Below, in pieces: positions 19,135-32,142 of a stretch of 64,000 bases of DNA. Source of the DNA: Martelella mediterranea (GTDB lineage: Bacteria; Pseudomonadota; Alphaproteobacteria; Rhizobiales; Rhizobiaceae); the NCBI GenBank assembly GCA_003001975.1, contig PVUG01000004.1:124001-188000 (forward strand), given 5' to 3'. The notes below the pieces were generated by a model. The model worked only from the letters and a program-made list of their open reading frames with translations, had not been told where the DNA came from and searched no databases. The position numbers and the translations under genes are program-made. The stretch's first letter is position 1; each line of letters begins with the position of its first letter.

Positions 19135-19495
19135 TGTAATCCACCCTCGCCTCGGCATGGTCGAGCAGGCCGGGCACCGGAGCCGAAGGCTTGCGCACGG
19201 CCACCTCGATCCGCCCGATTGCATCGTAATGCCGCGAAACCGAAACGGCGATGGCGTGCGCCAGCGCTTCGATCAGCTTAAAGCGGCGTCCGGTCACCAC
19301 GTCGCTGATCAGCCGGTACACCTCGCCGTAATCGACGGCATCGGAAAAATCGTCATGCAGCAGAGCCGCCTCGTCGTCGATATGCATGGTGATATCGATA
19401 TAGAAGCGCTGGCCGAGCCGCTCTTCCTCCTCCATCACGCCATGGGTGGAGAAGAAGGCGCAGTTCTTCAGTGTAATGGTATAGCGGCCGCTCAT
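19124..19495 (-). CDS. folB: Dihydroneopterin aldolase
   Basis: A 123-residue enzyme converting 7,8-dihydroneopterin to 6-hydroxymethyl-dihydropterin. Conserved elements are ITLKNCAFFSTHGVMEEEERLGQRFYID (with the Glu that contacts the pterin), DAVDYGEVYRLI, and KLIEALAHAIA. Its start overlaps the folP stop by 4 bases (ATGA), and its stop overlaps the folK start by 11 bases, so the three proteins are made from one tightly coupled message. Confidence 0.95.
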   Translation of the reverse strand: MSGRYTITLKNCAFFSTHGVMEEEERLGQRFYIDITMHIDDEAALLHDDFSDAVDYGEVYRLISDVVTGRRFKLIEALAHAIAVSVSRHYDAIGRIEVAVRKPSAPVPGLLDHAEARVDYNVR

Positions 19496-20364
19496 GACAG
19501 ATCTCCGTAGCGCCGCGCGATCATGGCATCAGCGAATGCAAGTGCCGCGCGGCTGGCACCGACATTGTGAACGCGGAAGATCGCGCCGCCGGCAAGGCGC
19601 GTCAGCGTGGTGGTCGCCGCTGTTGCGAAATCGCGGGTCAGATTGTCCTCGCCGCCGCCAACCGCGCCGACAAAGCGTTTGCGCGATGTGCCGACCAGAA
19701 TCGGCAGATCGAACACCTGCAGCGCATCCATATGCGCCATGATGGCGAGGTTGTCATCCACGCCCTTGCCGAAGCCGAAACCGGGATCGATCGCCAGCTG
19801 CGTTTGCTTGATACCGGCGGCACGCGCCGCACCGAGCGCTTCTTCCAGAAAGAGCAGCTGATCGGCCACCGGATCGGCAAGCGTGTCGCGGCCACGGCTG
19901 GTGTGCATGAGGCAATAGCCAGCGCCCGTTTCGGCGGCGACTTTCAGAATGTCCGGTTCGCCCGTCCCGCCGGTGACGTCATTGATGATGTGGGCGCCGG
20001 CGTTAACGGCAAGGCGCGCGGTCTCGGCGCGATAGGTGTCGACGGAAAGAAGCGCGTCGGTCTTTTCGGCCAGCGCCACAATCACCGGCAGCACCCGCTC
20101 CTGCTCCGCCTCGGGCGAAACCGGCGATGCGCCGGGGCGCGTCGATTCACCGCCGATATCGAGAATGCCGGCCCCGGCGGCAATGGCTGCGCCGGCGTAA
20201 TCGACGACGGCGGCGGTATCGGCAAACTGTCCGCCATCCGAAAAGGAATCCGGCGTCACATTGATGATCGCCATCAGCACCCCGGCAGGGCCGAGCGTGA
20301 GTGTCCGTCCGTGCGCGCAGTCAAGCACGCGCTGCCTGAAACAGCATTTTGTGGCTGACGTCAT
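19492..20364 (-). CDS. folP: Dihydropteroate synthase
   Basis: A 290-residue TIM-barrel enzyme that joins 6-hydroxymethyl-dihydropterin pyrophosphate with p-aminobenzoate; it is the sulfonamide target. Signatures are MAIINVTPDSFSDGG, DIGGESTRPGA, SVDTYRAETA, NDVTGG, DPGFGFGKG and VGTSRKRF. GGGGAAA lies upstream of the ATG at 20364. First gene of the folP-folB-folK operon; the ferredoxin gene upstream ends 62 bases before it on the same strand, so it may be included in the transcript. Confidence 0.96.
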   Translation of the reverse strand: MTSATKCCFRQRVLDCAHGRTLTLGPAGVLMAIINVTPDSFSDGGQFADTAAVVDYAGAAIAAGAGILDIGGESTRPGASPVSPEAEQERVLPVIVALAEKTDALLSVDTYRAETARLAVNAGAHIINDVTGGTGEPDILKVAAETGAGYCLMHTSRGRDTLADPVADQLLFLEEALGAARAAGIKQTQLAIDPGFGFGKGVDDNLAIMAHMDALQVFDLPILVGTSRKRFVGAVGGGEDNLTRDFATAATTTLTRLAGGAIFRVHNVGASRAALAFADAMIARRYGDLS

Positions 20365-20425: not shown

Positions 20426-20746
20426 TCAGCCCTGTTCGTCCGGCACGCGCACCGTCAGTCCGTCGAATTCGGCGCACATGTTGATCTGACAGGACAGCCG
20501 CGAATTGGCGCGGGGATCGATGGCGAAATCGAGCATGTCTTCTTCCATCGGCTCGGGTTCGCCAACCTTTTCGATCCAGGCTTCATCGACATAGACATGA
20601 CAGGTTGCGCAGGCACATGCGCCGCCGCATTCGGCAACAATTCCGGGCACACCGTTGCGCACGGCATTTTCCATGACAGTGGACCCGTCTTCCACCTCAA
20701 GGTTATAAACGGTGTCATCATTGCCGATGAATGTCAGTTTAAGCAT
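20426..20746 (-). CDS. 2Fe-2S ferredoxin (adrenodoxin type)
   Basis: A 106-residue electron carrier. The cluster cysteines are in ECGGACACATCHVY (C-x5-C-x2-C) and a fourth in RLSCQINM, as in vertebrate-type/adrenodoxin-like ferredoxins used in bacteria for cytochrome P450 or iron-sulfur assembly. The acidic patch PEPMEEDMLDFA matches the partner-binding helix of that family. It is not within the suf operon but could supply electrons to it; that is inference. It lies upstream of folP on the same strand and faces away from the giant coiled-coil gene. Confidence 0.93.
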   Translation of the reverse strand: MLKLTFIGNDDTVYNLEVEDGSTVMENAVRNGVPGIVAECGGACACATCHVYVDEAWIEKVGEPEPMEEDMLDFAIDPRANSRLSCQINMCAEFDGLTVRVPDEQG

Positions 20747-21293
20747 GTCGTGAACCTGTGTATCAAATGCCGGACGGCGGCGAGCTTCAACGGTTCTTCC
20801 TCCATAACGCAGGCACAGTCAACATATGCCGCCCGCGGCCCTTCCGCCCTGCAGCGGGCACGGCAAAAATACCGGCGGAAAGATCGCGATCATTGTGGAA
20901 AGCCTCAGAAAAGGCGCATTATGGTTAATATTTGCTAAATGACGGAATTTGATCGCTTTTTGCGGCTCCCGACAATGCCATTTGCGCGTCGATCCCATTT
21001 TCGGCGCAATCTGGAAGACGGGATAATGTTGTGCGGCTATAGCGAATGTGCGATTGAAAACGGGGGTAATCCCTTGAAATAGAAGACATTTGCCTGTCTT
21101 TTACTGCCTTTCCCGGACGCGGAAGGCTTTGATGGCAAGGCATTTGGCGGCTGTTTCGAACCTGTGTGCCGGAGATATGATTGCGTGCCCTGCAAGGGCC
21201 GTGACGTTTTCCGGTTTGGAAGTTTCGGGTCATCTATGCGCCTCAGCGAACGGCGAGGCGCAGAAGACGGCCCATGTGTCACGAGGCGTATCC
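20747..21293. other. Divergent intergenic region ferredoxin / giant coiled-coil gene
   Basis: 547 bases between divergent starts. The frame of the giant gene stays open upstream to 21090, with a possible ATG at 21132 behind GGAAGG, so up to 54 extra codons may be real. TTAATATTTGCTAAA at 20935-20949 is a CtrA box with one mismatch in the second half. No other gene or RNA is apparent. Confidence 0.4.
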
Positions 21294-24200
21294 ATGGCGA
21301 AACAATCTGGCGGCTCTTCGCTCGACGATCAGGCACTTCACGCGCTTGAAGATGCACTGTCTTCCGGTGCGGCGGAAACCGGCACTGACGCCGGGACGGC
21401 GCGCAAGGACACCACGACCGGGCGCGCGGACGAAAAGGCTACCCGCCCCCAGGAAGACCGTGCCAGCGCCCCGCGCCCGAAATCGCCCGCCTTCCGGCCT
21501 GCCAATGATCCGGGCATGCTGTCGACACAGCGCGTGCTGCGGGCCTTCGAGCGCCGTTCGACCGTCAAGGCCCTGCGCAACTCCACCATCATGTCTGCCG
21601 GCTGGCTGGCGCTCGGCGTTACCGGCACGCTAGTCGCCTTCGGCAGCCGCATCTTCAATGCCTCCTCCTTTGCCGACATTCTGAATATCGACGGCATCGG
21701 CCTTGCCGCCGCCCTCACCGTCGCGCCGATCTTCGTATTCTACGCCTTCAACATCATGCTGGCGCGCGCACGCGACATGCAGGATGCCGCCCGCTCGATG
21801 GCGGAAGTGGCGCTGCGCCTTTCCGATCCGGACGAAAATGCCGCCCAGCAGGTCCGCAATGTCAGCCAGGCCGTGCGCCGCGAAGTCTATGCCATGAACG
21901 AGGGCATCGAGCGCACCATCGCCCGCGCTTCCGAGCTTGAAAACCTCGTCCATTCCGAAGTCAACGCGCTGGAACGCAGCTACGCCGACAATGAAATGCG
22001 TATCCGCAATCTGGTGCAGGAACTGACGGCCGAACGTGAAGCCGTGGTCAATCACGCCGCACGTCTGAGAACCTCGATCCTGGGAACCAACGACCAGCTC
22101 AAGGGCGAAATCGGCACGGTCATGGACGAACTCACGCGCAAGGTGACGACGGCCGGTGACGGCGTTGCCGAAATGCTGGAAACCCGCGCAGCCATGATCG
22201 ACGAAAACACCGCCCGGGCGGTATCGACGATCGGGGAGCTTCTGGAAGACCGTTCCAACACGCTCACAACCGCGTTCGACCAGAGCTATGGCCAGCTTTC
22301 CGACCTGTTCGACAAGCGTTTCAACGATCTGTCGCAGAAATTCGATGAACGCGGCCGCACGCTGATCGACGATTTCCACACCAGCGCCACCGCACTCAAC
22401 GACGAGACCGAGCAGCTGACTTCCGCCCTGACCAAGCACGGCAGCGAGCTTGAGGAAATCCTCGACAAGCGCACCGAAACCCTGCGCGAAGTTGCCAAAA
22501 ACAGCGAAACGGCGATGAATGCTGCGCTGGAACGGGTGGTCGGCGGCCTTTCGGCCACGCTCAGCGAAAGCCAGGCCCGTTTCAACCAGCAGATCAACGA
22601 AACCGACGCGGAAATCGCCCGGCAGGTCGAGGAGCGCGGCCAGTATGTCGATCAGCGTCTCGACGCCACCATTGCCCGCCTTGGAACCGAACTCGACAGC
22701 AAGCTCGATACCTTCACCAGCGCCTTTGAAGAAAGCAGCGGGGCGATGGAAGGCCGGATCGACAACACGCTCAGCCGCTTCAACCAGACCTTCTCCGAAG
22801 GCGAGGCAAGTATCGGCACCATGCTTTCGCATGCATCCGAACGCATCCAAGACCGGATGAACGACCACACTCTGGCGCTGGCGACAACGCTTTCGGCCGG
22901 GACGGACATGCTCGGCGACACCCTCAAGACGCATGCGCAGGAAATCGGCGACACCATCGGAGCCGAACATGCCGGTCTCGAAAAGGTCTTCTCCGATGCG
23001 GCCGGACGACTGGACGAAAAGCTCACGCGCTTCAACCAGCAGATCGCCGACGGCGAGGCCAACATCAACGCCGTGCTGACGGAATCCGGCGAGCGGCTGA
23101 ACGAGCGCATGAATGATCAGGCGATCATGCTGACCACGACGCTTTCGGCCAGCGAGGAATCCTTCGCGATGTCGCTGGAAAGCCATGCGTCGCAGATCGA
23201 AAACCACATGCGCGAAGGCACCGAGCGCCTCAGCGGAACGCTGAGCGATGCGTCGAGCCGTCTGGATGTGCAGCTCGGCACGTTCAACGAACGCGTGGGA
23301 AGCGGCGAAAACGGCATTGCCACCCTGCTCGACAGTGCGTCTGAACGCCTGCAGGAACGCATGAACGACCATGCGGCCGCTCTGACCGCCACGCTGTCGA
23401 TCAGCGAGGACACGTTCGGACAGACCCTCGACGCGCATTCCGCCAGGCTGGAAGAAACGCTCAAGACCGGCCATGACCGCCTCGACGGTTCGCTCTCGGG
23501 TGCATCCGAACGGCTTGACGCCCAGCTTCAGCGCTTCAATGCGCAGGTCGGTGACGGTGAAAACGGCATCAGCGCCGCGATTTCGGCGGCCTCCGAGCGG
23601 CTTGGCGAACAGATGAACGAGCAGACGATGATGCTCGCCACCACGCTTTCGGTCGCTGAAGACACCTTCGGACAAACGATCGACGCGCGTTCGGCAAAAC
23701 TGGAAGAAGCGCTGAAGAACGGCCAGGGCCGGCTCGACGATGCGCTCTCCGAGGCGACCGGCCACATCGACCAGCAGCTGGGACACTTCACCTCGCGGCT
23801 TGGCGAGACGGAAGAAGGCATCACCTCTGCCCTTTCGGGTGCAAGCACACGCCTCGAAGCGCAGCTTACCGAGAAAACCGAGCGGCTTTCGGATACGCTG
23901 TCATCGGCGCGCTCCGCGTTCGAGCAGACCTTCGACCAGCACGAGCAGCGCCTCGGCAACACCGTCGAACAGGGGCATGAACGCTTTGCCGCGACACTCG
24001 ATGGCGCCGGCCAGCGCGTCGATGCCTCGTTCAACAGCGCCACCGAACGTCTCGACGAGCGCCTGAACGACCATGCCATCATGCTGGCGACCACACTGGC
24101 GACCAGCGAGGAAAGCCTCGGCCAGACGATCGATTCCTCTTCGACGCGCCTTTCCGAAGCGCTCCTTGACGGGCAGAACCGTCTTTCCGGTTCCTATGAA

Positions 24201-27200
24201 CAGGCCGCCGCGCGGCTGCAGGACACGATCATCGAGCAGACCGGCGCATTCGAAAGCCGGATTGGCGAAATCGATGGCCGCATCGCCCAGACCTTTGCCG
24301 ACCGTGAAGCCGGTATCCGCAGCGCTTACGAAGATGGCCAGATCCGTCTCGACGACAGCCTGCGCGAGGGAACAGGGCAGCTTGAAAATGCGCTGAAACA
24401 GGCAAGCGCCAGCATTTCCGAAACCCTATCCGACGAAACCACCAGCATTTCGGCCACGCTGGCCGCATCGTCCAGCCTGCTGGAAATGTCGCTGGAGGGC
24501 CGTGAAACCGCCCTGCGCGAAACCATCGACAAGGCCGGCATGGCACTTGAAGGCCGGCTGCGCAGTTCCGCCGGCGCGATTGCCGAAAAGGTTTCAGCCG
24601 CCGCCGGTCTGATCACGCAATCGGCCGAGACGATGACCGATCGCGTCGAGACCTCCTTCGGCGTGCTTGGTGAAAGCCTCGACAAACACAGCCAGACCGT
24701 GGAAACCGGCGCCTTCCGGATCGAGGGACTCGTCGATCAGGCCGGTCACCGCCTGGACAAGGCGCTCAACGATCACGCTGCGGCCATCGAGAACACCGGC
24801 GGGGCCGTCGAAAGCCGCCTCACCTCCTCGCTGTCGCACCATATCGAACGGCTGGCAGAAACCGGCGAGAGCACACGGGCACGGCTGGAATCCACCTTTG
24901 CGGACCAGAATGCCGGCTTTGAACGCGCCGCACACGAAGCATCGGAGAAACTTGCCGCTTCATCGGAGGCTATGCACAGCCGGATCAACGAAACGCTGAG
25001 CGAAAATTCCAGGCGCATCGAGCAGGCGGGCGAATCGGTCACAAACAGCCTCCATGAAACCCTGCTGACCCATGAAAACGCCTTCATGCTGGCCGGCACG
25101 CAGATCGATGAGCGCCTTGGCGGCATGCTCGACGAAAAGGCCCGCCTGATCGAAACGGCAAGCGACGCAGCCTCCAACCGGCTGGGCGAAACCCTTGACG
25201 CCCGCCGCAATGCCATTGCCGAAACCCTCGGCAAGGGACAGGAGCACATCGAAAACCGGTTCTCGAGCCTCGAGGGCGCGCTGGACCAGGGTCTCGTCAA
25301 TATCAGCGACACCATGGACCGCCGCACGGCCGAGCTTGCCGGACGGATCCGCGACACGGTTTCCGAAACATCCGCAGATATGGATCGCAACGCCGAAGAC
25401 GCCCGTCTCAAGCTGGAACAGGCCGGACAGAACTTCACCGAGCAGGTTTCCGGCGCTGTCGCCAATGCGCGTCAGGGCATGGAAAGCTCCGCCCACGAAA
25501 TCTTCGACCGTGCCCGCCAGATGCAGGCCGAACTGGCCAATCAGGCAGCCGTCGTCAGCGAACACGCATCGGAAAACAGCACGCGCATTTCCGAGGTCCT
25601 GTCGGCAACCAGCGCCCGGATCGACAACCAGGTCGAGACCATCCGCCGGACCATGAGCGATGCCGAACAGCTGCTGGCCGAACGTGGCGAGCGCCTCAAC
25701 AGCGGCATCGCCGGCACGGCCAGCATGCTGTCCGAGCGTCTTGGCGAATCCGAACAGTCGATGACGGAACGGGCACAGTCCCTGCGCGACAGCCTCGGCG
25801 CCCAGATGAAGGCGCTGGAGGAAACGCTGGGAACCGTCGATCGTGTTCTGGCCGCACGCAGCGATGCGGTCGGCAGTGCGCTGGACGAACGGGCCCGGGA
25901 CATGAATTCGATGCTCGCCGGCCATACCACCGAACTCAGCAGCCTGATCGAGGAAAAGGCAAGGCCGCTGATCGAAAGCTACGGCGAAACCGGCCGTGTG
26001 GCCGCCGAGCGCATCCGCAAGGCCTCCGAGGAAAGCAGCGAGCAGCTGCGGCAGGACGGCAACGCGCTTGCCGGCAATGTCGAAACGCTCGTCGGACACC
26101 TCAGCCAGAGCCACCAGATGCTGGCCGGCATCGTCGATCAGGCCGCCGCCCGCCTCTCGTCTGCCGACGAGCAGCTCGGCACGACAGCGGCCCGCATCAG
26201 CGAAACCGCCGAACGTTCGGCCGCATCGCTTGAAAATTCGAGCAACCTGCTCGGCAGCAAGGTCGATGCGCTTGACGGCAGTGCCGCCGGTGCGCTGGAA
26301 ACCGTTCGCGGCCTCGTCTCCCAGATCGAAAGCCATGCCGGCGTTCTCGACCGCGCCTCGAACCTGATCGAGGCTGCGCAGTCGAACCTCGCCAACACGC
26401 TTACCGAACGTCAGGAGGCGCTTGGCCTTCTCTCAAGCGGTCTGGCAGATCGCTCGCAGGAGATCGAAAAGAGCCTCCAGGCCGTCGGCGCTGCGGTTGC
26501 CGCGTCCATGGAAAAGACGGGCCAGGATGCCGAAAGCATGTCCCAGCGCGTTGCCGAAACCCTGCGCGGTTCGGTGGAAGATGCCGCCAAACGGTTCTCC
26601 GGCGCCACGCAGGACATCGAGCGGATTTCCGCCGAAATCCGCGCCGAGCTCGACAACACACGCGAAGCGGTCAAGCGCGGCATTCACGACATGCCGGAAG
26701 AGGCACGCGAAAGCGCACAGGCCATGCGCAAGGCGGTGGAAGACCAGATCCGCGCCCTGCAGGATATCTCGACCATGATCTCGGCATCGAAGTCGCAGAT
26801 TTCCGCCCCCGAGGCCCCGCGCCCTGCTCCGAAAAAGCAGGAAGAACCGGCACAGCGCCCGTTCACCAGCCCGCCTGCCGGTTCGCTCAGCGGCCCCGCG
26901 GCCGCCAGCCTGTCAGCGGCGTCGGCCGCCAGACAGCCTGCCCGCGAACCCCAGCAGCAGGCCGTGACCCGGACCGCCGCAAGCAATGCTCCAGGTGGCG
27001 AAGGCTGGATCAGCGATCTTCTGAGAGCCGCCGCACGTGAGGAAGCCGGTCAGCAGCGCGACAGCCAGAAAGCCGGCGGCTGGACCGCCCAGGCGACGGC
27101 CAGCGAGCGCAAGCCCAATCAGGTCGTCGATTCGCTGAATTCGCTTTCCGTCGATATTGCCCGGGCAATCGACCACGATGCCTCGGTCGAGCTGTGGCGG

Positions 27201-27464
27201 CGTTACCAGCAGGGCGAGCGCGATGTCTTCACCCGCCGGCTCTACACGCTGAAGGGGCAGCGCACCTTCGACGAGATCAAGGCAAAGTATGAGGGCGATC
27301 GCGAGTTCAAGACCGCTGTCGACCGCTATGTCGCCGATTTCGAGAAGCTGCTCTCCGACGTCATGCGCAAGAACCGCGACCGGACGGCCATCCAGTCCTA
27401 TCTGACGTCCGATACCGGCAAGGTCTACACCATGCTTGCCCACGCCGCCGGACGGCTGAAATAA
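21294..27464 (+). CDS. Giant membrane-anchored coiled-coil protein with tandem 84-residue repeats
   Basis: About 2056 residues. A charged N-terminal region is followed by two transmembrane helices (about 99-119 and 136-156). Some 1650 residues of almost uninterrupted helix come next, rich in Glu, Ala, Ser, Thr, Arg and Asp, of the kind often auto-annotated as kinesin-like or apolipoprotein-like. Residues 496-831 are four repeats of exactly 84 residues (each about FNxxxxxGExxI...ERMNDH...TTLS...RLD), with degenerate copies after. After a Pro/Gln-rich linker (about 1840-1900) comes a compact C-terminal domain containing SVDIARAIDHDASVELWRRY and FTRRLYTLKGQRTFDEI. The ATG at 21294 has GAGG 8 bases upstream. 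It is monocistronic. It is probably an inner-membrane scaffold reaching into the cell or periplasm; the function is unproven. Confidence 0.85.
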   Translation: MAKQSGGSSLDDQALHALEDALSSGAAETGTDAGTARKDTTTGRADEKATRPQEDRASAPRPKSPAFRPANDPGMLSTQRVLRAFERRSTVKALRNSTIMSAGWLALGVTGTLVAFGSRIFNASSFADILNIDGIGLAAALTVAPIFVFYAFNIMLARARDMQDAARSMAEVALRLSDPDENAAQQVRNVSQAVRREVYAMNEGIERTIARASELENLVHSEVNALERSYADNEMRIRNLVQELTAEREAVVNHAARLRTSILGTNDQLKGEIGTVMDELTRKVTTAGDGVAEMLETRAAMIDENTARAVSTIGELLEDRSNTLTTAFDQSYGQLSDLFDKRFNDLSQKFDERGRTLIDDFHTSATALNDETEQLTSALTKHGSELEEILDKRTETLREVAKNSETAMNAALERVVGGLSATLSESQARFNQQINETDAEIARQVEERGQYVDQRLDATIARLGTELDSKLDTFTSAFEESSGAMEGRIDNTLSRFNQTFSEGEASIGTMLSHASERIQDRMNDHTLALATTLSAGTDMLGDTLKTHAQEIGDTIGAEHAGLEKVFSDAAGRLDEKLTRFNQQIADGEANINAVLTESGERLNERMNDQAIMLTTTLSASEESFAMSLESHASQIENHMREGTERLSGTLSDASSRLDVQLGTFNERVGSGENGIATLLDSASERLQERMNDHAAALTATLSISEDTFGQTLDAHSARLEETLKTGHDRLDGSLSGASERLDAQLQRFNAQVGDGENGISAAISAASERLGEQMNEQTMMLATTLSVAEDTFGQTIDARSAKLEEALKNGQGRLDDALSEATGHIDQQLGHFTSRLGETEEGITSALSGASTRLEAQLTEKTERLSDTLSSARSAFEQTFDQHEQRLGNTVEQGHERFAATLDGAGQRVDASFNSATERLDERLNDHAIMLATTLATSEESLGQTIDSSSTRLSEALLDGQNRLSGSYEQAAARLQDTIIEQTGAFESRIGEIDGRIAQTFADREAGIRSAYEDGQIRLDDSLREGTGQLENALKQASASISETLSDETTSISATLAASSSLLEMSLEGRETALRETIDKAGMALEGRLRSSAGAIAEKVSAAAGLITQSAETMTDRVETSFGVLGESLDKHSQTVETGAFRIEGLVDQAGHRLDKALNDHAAAIENTGGAVESRLTSSLSHHIERLAETGESTRARLESTFADQNAGFERAAHEASEKLAASSEAMHSRINETLSENSRRIEQAGESVTNSLHETLLTHENAFMLAGTQIDERLGGMLDEKARLIETASDAASNRLGETLDARRNAIAETLGKGQEHIENRFSSLEGALDQGLVNISDTMDRRTAELAGRIRDTVSETSADMDRNAEDARLKLEQAGQNFTEQVSGAVANARQGMESSAHEIFDRARQMQAELANQAAVVSEHASENSTRISEVLSATSARIDNQVETIRRTMSDAEQLLAERGERLNSGIAGTASMLSERLGESEQSMTERAQSLRDSLGAQMKALEETLGTVDRVLAARSDAVGSALDERARDMNSMLAGHTTELSSLIEEKARPLIESYGETGRVAAERIRKASEESSEQLRQDGNALAGNVETLVGHLSQSHQMLAGIVDQAAARLSSADEQLGTTAARISETAERSAASLENSSNLLGSKVDALDGSAAGALETVRGLVSQIESHAGVLDRASNLIEAAQSNLANTLTERQEALGLLSSGLADRSQEIEKSLQAVGAAVAASMEKTGQDAESMSQRVAETLRGSVEDAAKRFSGATQDIERISAEIRAELDNTREAVKRGIHDMPEEARESAQAMRKAVEDQIRALQDISTMISASKSQISAPEAPRPAPKKQEEPAQRPFTSPPAGSLSGPAAASLSAASAARQPAREPQQQAVTRTAASNAPGGEGWISDLLRAAAREEAGQQRDSQKAGGWTAQATASERKPNQVVDSLNSLSVDIARAIDHDASVELWRRYQQGERDVFTRRLYTLKGQRTFDEIKAKYEGDREFKTAVDRYVADFEKLLSDVMRKNRDRTAIQSYLTSDTGKVYTMLAHAAGRLK
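22779..23786 (+). repeat. Four in-frame tandem 252-base repeats within the giant gene
   Basis: Units start at 22779, 23031, 23283 and 23535, each exactly 252 bases (84 codons) with no insertion or deletion. Each begins with a Phe codon (FNQTF, FNQQI, FNERV, FNAQV); a fifth, degenerate unit begins at 23787 (FTSRL). Conserved positions include GE near residue 8-9, SERL near 20-23, MND/MNE near 27-29 and TTLS/TATLS near 35-39. Protein similarity is clear, while the DNA has diverged, so the duplication is old and length is under selection. Confidence 0.9.
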
Positions 27465-30975: not shown

Positions 30976-32142
30976 TCAATAATTGATTGCCGCGTAGAAA
31001 ATAGCAAAAATTCCGTCGGCGAGAATGACCACGAAAATCGACTTCACGACCGAGGCCGTCACCTTCTGGCCAAGGGATTCGGCACTGCCGCCAACTTTCA
31101 TCCCCTCAAGCGAGGCAATGATCGCGATGATCAGCGCCATGACCGGCGCTTTCAGCATGCCCGAAATCACATCTGCCATGTCAACGGCCTCATGGAAACG
31201 CTGCATGAAGGTCTCAAGCGTGATCCCCGAATAGACATCGAGGATGACCACGGCGCCCAAAAGAGCGGAGAAATTGGCCAGAATGGTCAACAGCGGCAGC
31301 GCGATCAGCAGGGCCAGCATGCGCGGAAACACGAGCACGGAAACCGGATCGAAGCCCATCACCCGCAGCGCATCGATTTCCTCACGCATGCGCATGGCGC
31401 CGATTTCGGCGGTGATGGCACTGCCGGAACGCCCCGCAATCATGATCGCGGTCAAAAGCACGCCGATTTCGCGAAGCTGGAGAATGCCGACAAGGTCGAC
31501 AACGAACAGTTCCGCCCCGAAATAGCTGAGCTGAAAGGCCCCCTGCTGGGCGATGATGGCACCGACCAGAAACGACATCAGCGCGATGATCGGCACCGCA
31601 CGCACGCCCATATGGTCAAGCTGGGCGGTGATCGCGGCCATATTGACGCCGCCGCCGCGCGAAAGAAGCGCCTTCACACCGAGAAACAGCGCTCCGAAAA
31701 AGCCGACGCCGCGATAGACATCCCGCGCACCGGCCACCGCCGACTTACCGACAGGATCAAGAACAGCCTCCGTCAGGCTCGGCCGCGGTTGAGACACCTT
31801 TTCCGGCTCGGGCAAGGTCTCGGGAATGGCTTCCATCAGATCGGCAACACGGCGCTCCATGCCCGAAAGCGTGGCCTCCATGCCTGCGGCCACACATTCG
31901 GCCTGCACTTCGCGGACCATCCAGGCGCCTGCGGTGTCGAAGCCTTCAAGTTGCGACAGGTCGAGCACAGCCGTGCCGCCGGCGCCCTGCAGGCTGTCAC
32001 GCAGCCGGTCTATCTCTCCGCTGAGAAGGCGCGCATTGCGGACCGTCCAATAGCCCCGAAGACACAGGGTGCTGGCCGTTCCGCCGTCGCCGGTTTCCAC
32101 CGTCAGGGAGGCTTTGCTTTCGTCCGCGTTCTGCAAATGCAA
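30976..32142 (-). CDS. mlaE: STAS-MlaE fusion permease
   Basis: A 388-residue protein. Residues about 10-100 form a STAS domain (LRGYWTVRNARLL, AVLDLSQLEGFDTAGAWMV), equivalent to the separate MlaB protein of enterobacteria. The rest is the MlaE permease, with five to six membrane helices and the conserved sequences GVRAVPIIALMSFLVGAIIAQQ, REIGVLLTAIMIAGRSGSAITAEIG and MGFDPVSVLVFPRMLA. MlaB binds MlaF in enterobacteria, so the fusion probably places it on the same complex. First gene of the operon. The start is a TTG at 32142 with no strong ribosome-binding site, so a slightly different start is possible. Confidence 0.92.
   Translation of the reverse strand: MHLQNADESKASLTVETGDGGTASTLCLRGYWTVRNARLLSGEIDRLRDSLQGAGGTAVLDLSQLEGFDTAGAWMVREVQAECVAAGMEATLSGMERRVADLMEAIPETLPEPEKVSQPRPSLTEAVLDPVGKSAVAGARDVYRGVGFFGALFLGVKALLSRGGGVNMAAITAQLDHMGVRAVPIIALMSFLVGAIIAQQGAFQLSYFGAELFVVDLVGILQLREIGVLLTAIMIAGRSGSAITAEIGAMRMREEIDALRVMGFDPVSVLVFPRMLALLIALPLLTILANFSALLGAVVILDVYSGITLETFMQRFHEAVDMADVISGMLKAPVMALIIAIIASLEGMKVGGSAESLGQKVTASVVKSIFVVILADGIFAIFYAAINY

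Follow-up and report, generated by a model that had tools for sequence, protein, structure and literature searches.

Length changes in the hendecad-patterned rod of a GPR/RgsE orthologue from Martelella mediterranea fall almost exclusively in helical phase

Results

The window analyzed here, a stretch of 64,000 nt of Martelella mediterranea DNA, carries at 21294..27464 on the (+) strand a gene for a protein of 2056 aa, counted from an ATG at 21294; the mechanically called open reading frame starts upstream, at a TTG at 21090. The protein is similar from end to end to proteins of Sinorhizobium meliloti and Agrobacterium, with identities of 43–48% at the N-terminal end and about 53% at the C-terminal end. 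Specifically, it shares 47.5% identity with the Agrobacterium orthologue L096 over the N-terminal 300 aa and 53.6% over the C-terminal 296 aa, and the C-terminal stretch from Martelella radicis is 94% identical. Its length (~2100 aa expected), its N-terminal hydrophobic segments, and its long helical rod are traits of GPR/RgsE. The S. meliloti Ak57 orthologue has 2089 aa, which is also the length given for RgsE (SMc00190) in PMC7327166, and carries the annotation "kinesin." Judging by these similarities, the window protein is orthologous to GPR/RgsE, the growth pole ring protein. An earlier, sequence-only reading of this DNA had placed it in a family with no better name than hypothetical or kinesin-like, a label that gives way to GPR/RgsE; a Pfam scan of the whole protein found no kinesin motor family at E ≤ 1.

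On the (−) strand, a 2Fe-2S ferredoxin gene (20426..20746) is the divergent neighbor, followed by folP (dihydropteroate synthase; 19492..20364). S. meliloti RgsE shares with the window gene both its length class and its folP/ferredoxin side: the two genes occur there in the same order and on the same side of rgsE, with additional genes in between. A gene for an MlaE-type lipid-transport permease lies a few kilobases downstream of the GPR/RgsE gene (30979–32142). A query with the C-terminal stretch had a match in 149 of the 151 genomes from the family and in 380 of the 397 from the order. A search of plasmid DNA returned four Sinorhizobium records in which the match was confined to the C-terminal 5%; these helped with annotation and synteny.

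The sequence-only reading had made this a membrane protein whose long rod resembles a coil, and that architecture holds. A predicted N-terminal membrane hairpin (21585..21764, [+] strand) comprises two hydrophobic segments, a weaker one near aa 98–117 (hydropathy, 1.56) and a stronger one near aa 134–157 (hydropathy, 2.0), the latter being the only one above the threshold of 1.6. The rod spans aa 181–1750 (~1570 residues; 21834..26543, [+] strand) and bears a single hydrophobic stripe; it is strongly acidic (net charge of −7.6 per 100 residues; median of −6.1 across 138 sequences) and contains one Pro, no Cys, and no Trp. The protein ends in a helical domain (27114..27461, [+] strand), delimited by an alignment of 56 sequences and by an AlphaFold model of the 174-aa C-terminal stretch that places helices at residues 59–169 (pLDDT, 78.1; pTM, 0.62). 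This domain is the best-conserved part of the GPR/RgsE family. The whole-protein Pfam scan assigned it to no family, its 112 Foldseek matches to the PDB at E ≤ 10 included none at E ≤ 0.001, and a PHROGs search with the C-terminal stretch gave a single match with an E-value of 0.089, which was set aside.

The Fourier spectrum of the whole rod (LIVMF residues counted) is dominated by a single peak, at 3.655 residues per turn, with a power of 130, compared with a power of at most 9.7 in 40 shuffled rods. Windows that begin between aa 235 and aa 1390 keep the phase of the stripe within about 90 degrees, whereas it drifts in later ones, and the highest self-match lags over the whole protein are 11 and 22. 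When positions were divided into 11 sectors, LIVMF residues were concentrated in three neighboring ones (88%, 56%, and 44%) and made up ≤15% of each of the remaining eight; Arg and Thr occupy one flank of the stripe and Asp and Glu lie opposite. This 11-residue hydrophobic pattern, together with a (4,7) spacing, is that of a hendecad coiled coil, whose period lies near 3.67. The SMC arms encoded in the same genome, analyzed by the same method, gave periods of 3.51 and 3.47, and a canonical heptad coiled coil with a period of 3.5 was rejected for the rod. The period is a family trait, the best windowed value being 3.59–3.68 in 137 of 138 sequences (median, 3.657).

Within the rod, four consecutive 252-base units, each starting with Phe, occupy 22779..23030, 23031..23282, 23283..23534, and 23535..23786 on the (+) strand, as the sequence-only reading had noted; its count of four fell one short, since a more diverged fifth unit with a Phe start follows in the same register (23787..24038, [+] strand). 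Units 1–4 share 33–56% protein identity and 54–65% DNA identity among themselves, and unit 5 is 25–38% identical to them at the protein level, compared with 8–15% for the 84-residue blocks flanking the five-unit array. A self-match at lag 84 extends over aa 487–922 (5.2 units, 44% identity) and scored 513; when the rod was shuffled 2000 times as blocks of 11 residues, the highest score at any of four lags never exceeded 49. The 252-base period was found by an ungapped repeat search and was not reported by Tandem Repeats Finder. Identity among units 1–4 is lowest at codon position 3 (45%) and higher at positions 1 (59%) and 2 (71%). As previously proposed, the units keep a constant length of 84 residues in register across the joints, with length constrained more strongly than sequence.

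The composition of the unit, in contrast, differs from the 12 heptads proposed earlier: the four-unit region has a power of 48 at 3.654 residues but only 3.4 at 3.496, and each unit consists of seven hendecads and one heptad. Specifically, the conserved hydrophobic spacing, derived from 120 matches to the unit across 11 Martelella proteins (counting weak ones beyond the array), is seven repeats of (4,7) followed by 4,3 (7 × 11 + 7); the heptad sits at the joint, and the unit makes 23 turns. Gly is unusually frequent in the rod, at 7.2% against a family median of 6.6%, and reaches 8.5% in the array, which is high for a rigid coil, and a motif containing Gly lies right after every 84-residue unit start. 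The hydrophobic phase is continuous through the joints, whereas a weak, low-confidence AlphaFold monomer model of the array (pLDDT, 64.6; pTM, 0.21) breaks the helix at model residues 203–208 and 371–374, just past the starts of two of the five units (3 and 5) at the Gly-containing motif. On this model, a hinge at some unit joints is possible.

To compare orthologues, we removed a fragment (L071), a sequence identical to L060 (L189), repeats of L055, L057, and L058 (L195, L202, and L203, respectively), and L056, which lacks a long frame with the C terminus; L076 was kept although it is cut by a contig end. At a score of 150, lag-84 arrays were detected in 11 of the 13 Martelella but in none of 134 other sequences. 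They extend over 4.4–7.1 units, and a 40-residue repeat replaces them in the other two Martelella. Hence, variable unit length, which would speak against a fixed unit, is seen between genera but not inside the lag-84 Martelella arrays. The array of the Martelella relative L199, with 7.1 units at 65% identity, has the most similar units among the species examined, which suggests recent turnover.

Other lineages have repeats of different lengths, including 80, 66, 88, 55, 44, 40, and 94 residues. All 29 distinct strong lags between 12 and 110 fall on whole turns at a period of 3.60–3.667, a band that holds 38 of 99 lag values and was chosen after the lags had been seen. With the period fixed at 3.655, 166 of 249 strong lags (115 of 193 for lags of ≥40) lie within 40 degrees, and several lineages with units of 58, 65, 72, or 94 residues fit a shorter period of 3.60–3.625. 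A genuine tandem repeat imposes harmonics of its own length, so these lags are weaker evidence than the insertions and deletions (indels) described below. Across 138 sequences, the approximate rod length ranges from 428 to 2468 residues.

Among small genomes of about 1.1–1.9 Mb (L163, L164, L158, L160, and L162), the gene is kept with shorter frames (1345–1718 aa). The excluded contig L056, titled Marinicella sp. W31, shares 89% identity with the window over the C-terminal stretch, and its longest frame has 1721 aa; either the gene is broken or the contig is misassembled, and the record is perhaps misnamed.

Indels were analyzed in 47 disjoint pairs, chosen greedily as the closest pairs with a shared 5-mer fraction of ≥0.15 and comprising 94 of the 138 sequences. 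By alignment, 97 of 169 rod gaps were multiples of 11, compared with 7 of 270 gaps outside the rod, and the mean cosine of gap length at 3.655 was 0.74 in the rod (null, −0.01; SD, 0.05) versus −0.09 outside it. Small out-of-phase indels, defined as those of length 1–3, 5, 6, or 8–10, numbered 2 over 69042 aligned residues of the rod, compared with 209 over 27644 residues outside it, the non-rod controls including disordered stretches tolerant of small indels. Mismatch rates were similar (0.171 in the rod, 0.178 in the N-terminal part, and 0.130 in the C-terminal part). Among the 31 pairs with ≥80% identity, 45 of 57 rod gaps were multiples of 11.

The contrast between rod and non-rod was concordant across four gap-penalty settings; under the loosest penalty, small out-of-phase gaps rose to 7 in 48385 residues of the rod, against 115 in 18562 outside it. 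An alignment-free comparison anchored on shared unique 10-mers gave the same picture: 56 of 77 rod changes were multiples of 11, 71 of 77 lay within 50 degrees, and none of the 77 was small and out of phase, whereas outside the rod the corresponding counts were 3 multiples of 11, 10 in phase, and 74 small and out of phase among 94 changes. Compared with its nearest four species (78–80% identity), the window protein shows rod changes of +84 (2 of 4) and +22 (4 of 4) and no others. Comparison with the two Martelella carrying the 40-residue repeat (about 50% identity) did produce small out-of-phase gaps, possibly through ambiguous alignment. Rod gap positions cluster in the third to seventh tenth, and 37 of 55 rod indels of ≥11 residues in pairs with ≥80% identity resemble the adjacent stretch of equal length (match of 40% or more), so repeat-driven mutation supplies many of the length steps.

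We found no sign that length changes within a rod offset one another. The net change ratio (squared sum over sum of squares) was 2.52 across 26 pairs, 1.67 when the largest pair was left out, 1.15 when three were left out, and 1.53 in the 17 pairs with ≥80% identity. Twelve comparisons of SMC arms among the 13 Martelella genomes gave 0 gaps in 8280 aligned residues. The rod is, therefore, free to change length, but almost exclusively in phase.

Discussion

The pattern of period, units, and length changes is probably best explained by a membrane-anchored scaffold rod, a hendecad coiled coil that evolves in length by quantized, phase-locked steps. According to this proposal, GPR/RgsE would be a polar scaffold consisting of an N-terminal hairpin anchor, an alpha-helical rod, and a conserved C-terminal domain, a function that we extend to the window protein by analogy with experiments in Agrobacterium and Sinorhizobium. 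With roughly 1560 residues at a rise of 0.15 nm each, the rod would measure about 235 nm when fully extended. A hendecad-dominated amphipathic coil with a period of 3.655 would be nearly straight or form a gently right-handed coiled coil; the pairing of helices as a coiled coil, and the number of strands, are inferred from the pattern. Tandem duplication and deletion would lengthen and shorten the rod, and, because 84 residues make 23 turns, gain or loss of a unit leaves the hydrophobic stripe in place. Selection would then remove changes that rotate the stripe and tolerate those that are in phase. What we infer is thus selection on the position of the stripe, and not on length itself as the sequence-only reading had it, given that unit number and unit length vary and changes in rod length go uncompensated while rotational phase is held in common.

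The published reading of these helices is that of an apolipoprotein-like lipid binder, in which the 11- and 22-residue repeats are amphipathic helices that lie on membrane or lipid and are not paired. PF01442 indeed matches the whole protein with an E-value of 1.5e-69 (11 stretches; 234 bits against a cut-off of 90), the five distinct PDB sequence matches at E ≤ 0.01 are all apolipoproteins (A-IV and E; best E-value, 1.2e-8), and PMC8262873 reports that deleting such regions from Agrobacterium GPR harmed shape and ring formation. However, two phase-preserving shuffles of a 600-residue piece, only 18% identical to the real piece, kept 75 and 80 of its 114 PF01442 bits, while one full shuffle abolished the match. 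Since about two thirds of the score survives, the "apolipoprotein" label probably reflects mostly pattern and not demonstrable homology; the remainder could stem from homology or local order. The stripe, moreover, is narrow and the rod strongly acidic, which would suit an anionic membrane poorly, and these features, together with the Arg/Thr flank, would fit helix-helix packing better. We regard lipid binding as unlikely.

Phase-locked steps might also be a mutational by-product, with recombination between 33- and 66-base repeats yielding multiples of 11 in the absence of phase selection. Although the many large indels that look like the neighboring stretch agree with such a process, it leaves unaccounted for both the near-absence of small rod indels, which need no repeat, and the in-phase changes that are not multiples of 11 (7, 18, 29, 58, and 84), and we consider it quite improbable. 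Even less probable is the idea, raised in the sequence-only reading, that unit number acts as a fixed ruler for the reach of the protein. A unit of exactly 84 residues throughout the Martelella arrays would agree with a ruler, and coiled-coil arms of selected length do exist, e.g., in SMC (PMC5344682). Yet unit number varies from 4.4 to 7.1 within one genus, rod lengths span the wide range given above with uncompensated changes, and the gap-free SMC arms illustrate what a truly fixed length looks like.

The hendecad scaffold rod can be compared with several known systems. GPR (Atu1348) of Agrobacterium tumefaciens is like the window protein in having two N-terminal membrane segments, a giant helical rod with PF01442 matches, and a conserved C terminus, but the Agrobacterium orthologues carry repeats of 44 or 66 residues instead of 84. 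Likewise, the Sinorhizobium sequences examined differ in having no 84-residue array. According to PMC8262873, GPR appears as six foci arranged in a 200-nm ring close to the growing tip and is required for rod shape. PMC7327166 lists TolQ and other Rgs proteins as interaction partners of RgsE, which it describes as dispensable in S. meliloti Rm2011. SMC arms are alike in that, according to PMC5344682, the coil functions at certain lengths only, in a periodic pattern; they differ in their heptad period, in having no indels within the genus, and in preferred steps of about 100 residues, not 11. The cytoplasmic tail of ZorA is similarly a membrane-anchored bundle of long helices (PMC11890865). NCBIfam ZorA_1 matched the rod with 82 bits (10 stretches), far under its cut-off of 190; this match probably reflects a shared helical pattern, and no motor domain was seen.

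In Rhizobiales, GPR is a central organizer of unipolar growth. Its huge rod has so far been read as apolipoprotein domains plus short coiled coils, with PMC8262873 describing 21-residue predicted coiled coils and apolipoprotein domains. The words "repeat," "hendecad," "heptad," and "periodicity" are absent from the text of that paper, and the open-access literature searched contained no mention of hendecads or of an 84-residue unit for the GPR family. A rod with one hendecad stripe, whose length changes are locked to its phase, is a different, testable model, and it tells how GPR could be cut while remaining intact, namely, in steps of 11, 22, or 84 residues. It also provides a clear case in which helical phase quantizes indel lengths while total length drifts.

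A further reading, which we offer as unlikely, is that the rod is a genetically adjustable strut whose length sets the diameter or the stand-off of the growth pole ring in discrete steps. If so, ring geometry would itself evolve in discrete steps. The extended length calculated for the window rod is of the same order as the ring reported for Agrobacterium, and, at 0.15 nm per residue, rod lengths across the family correspond to about 64–370 nm.
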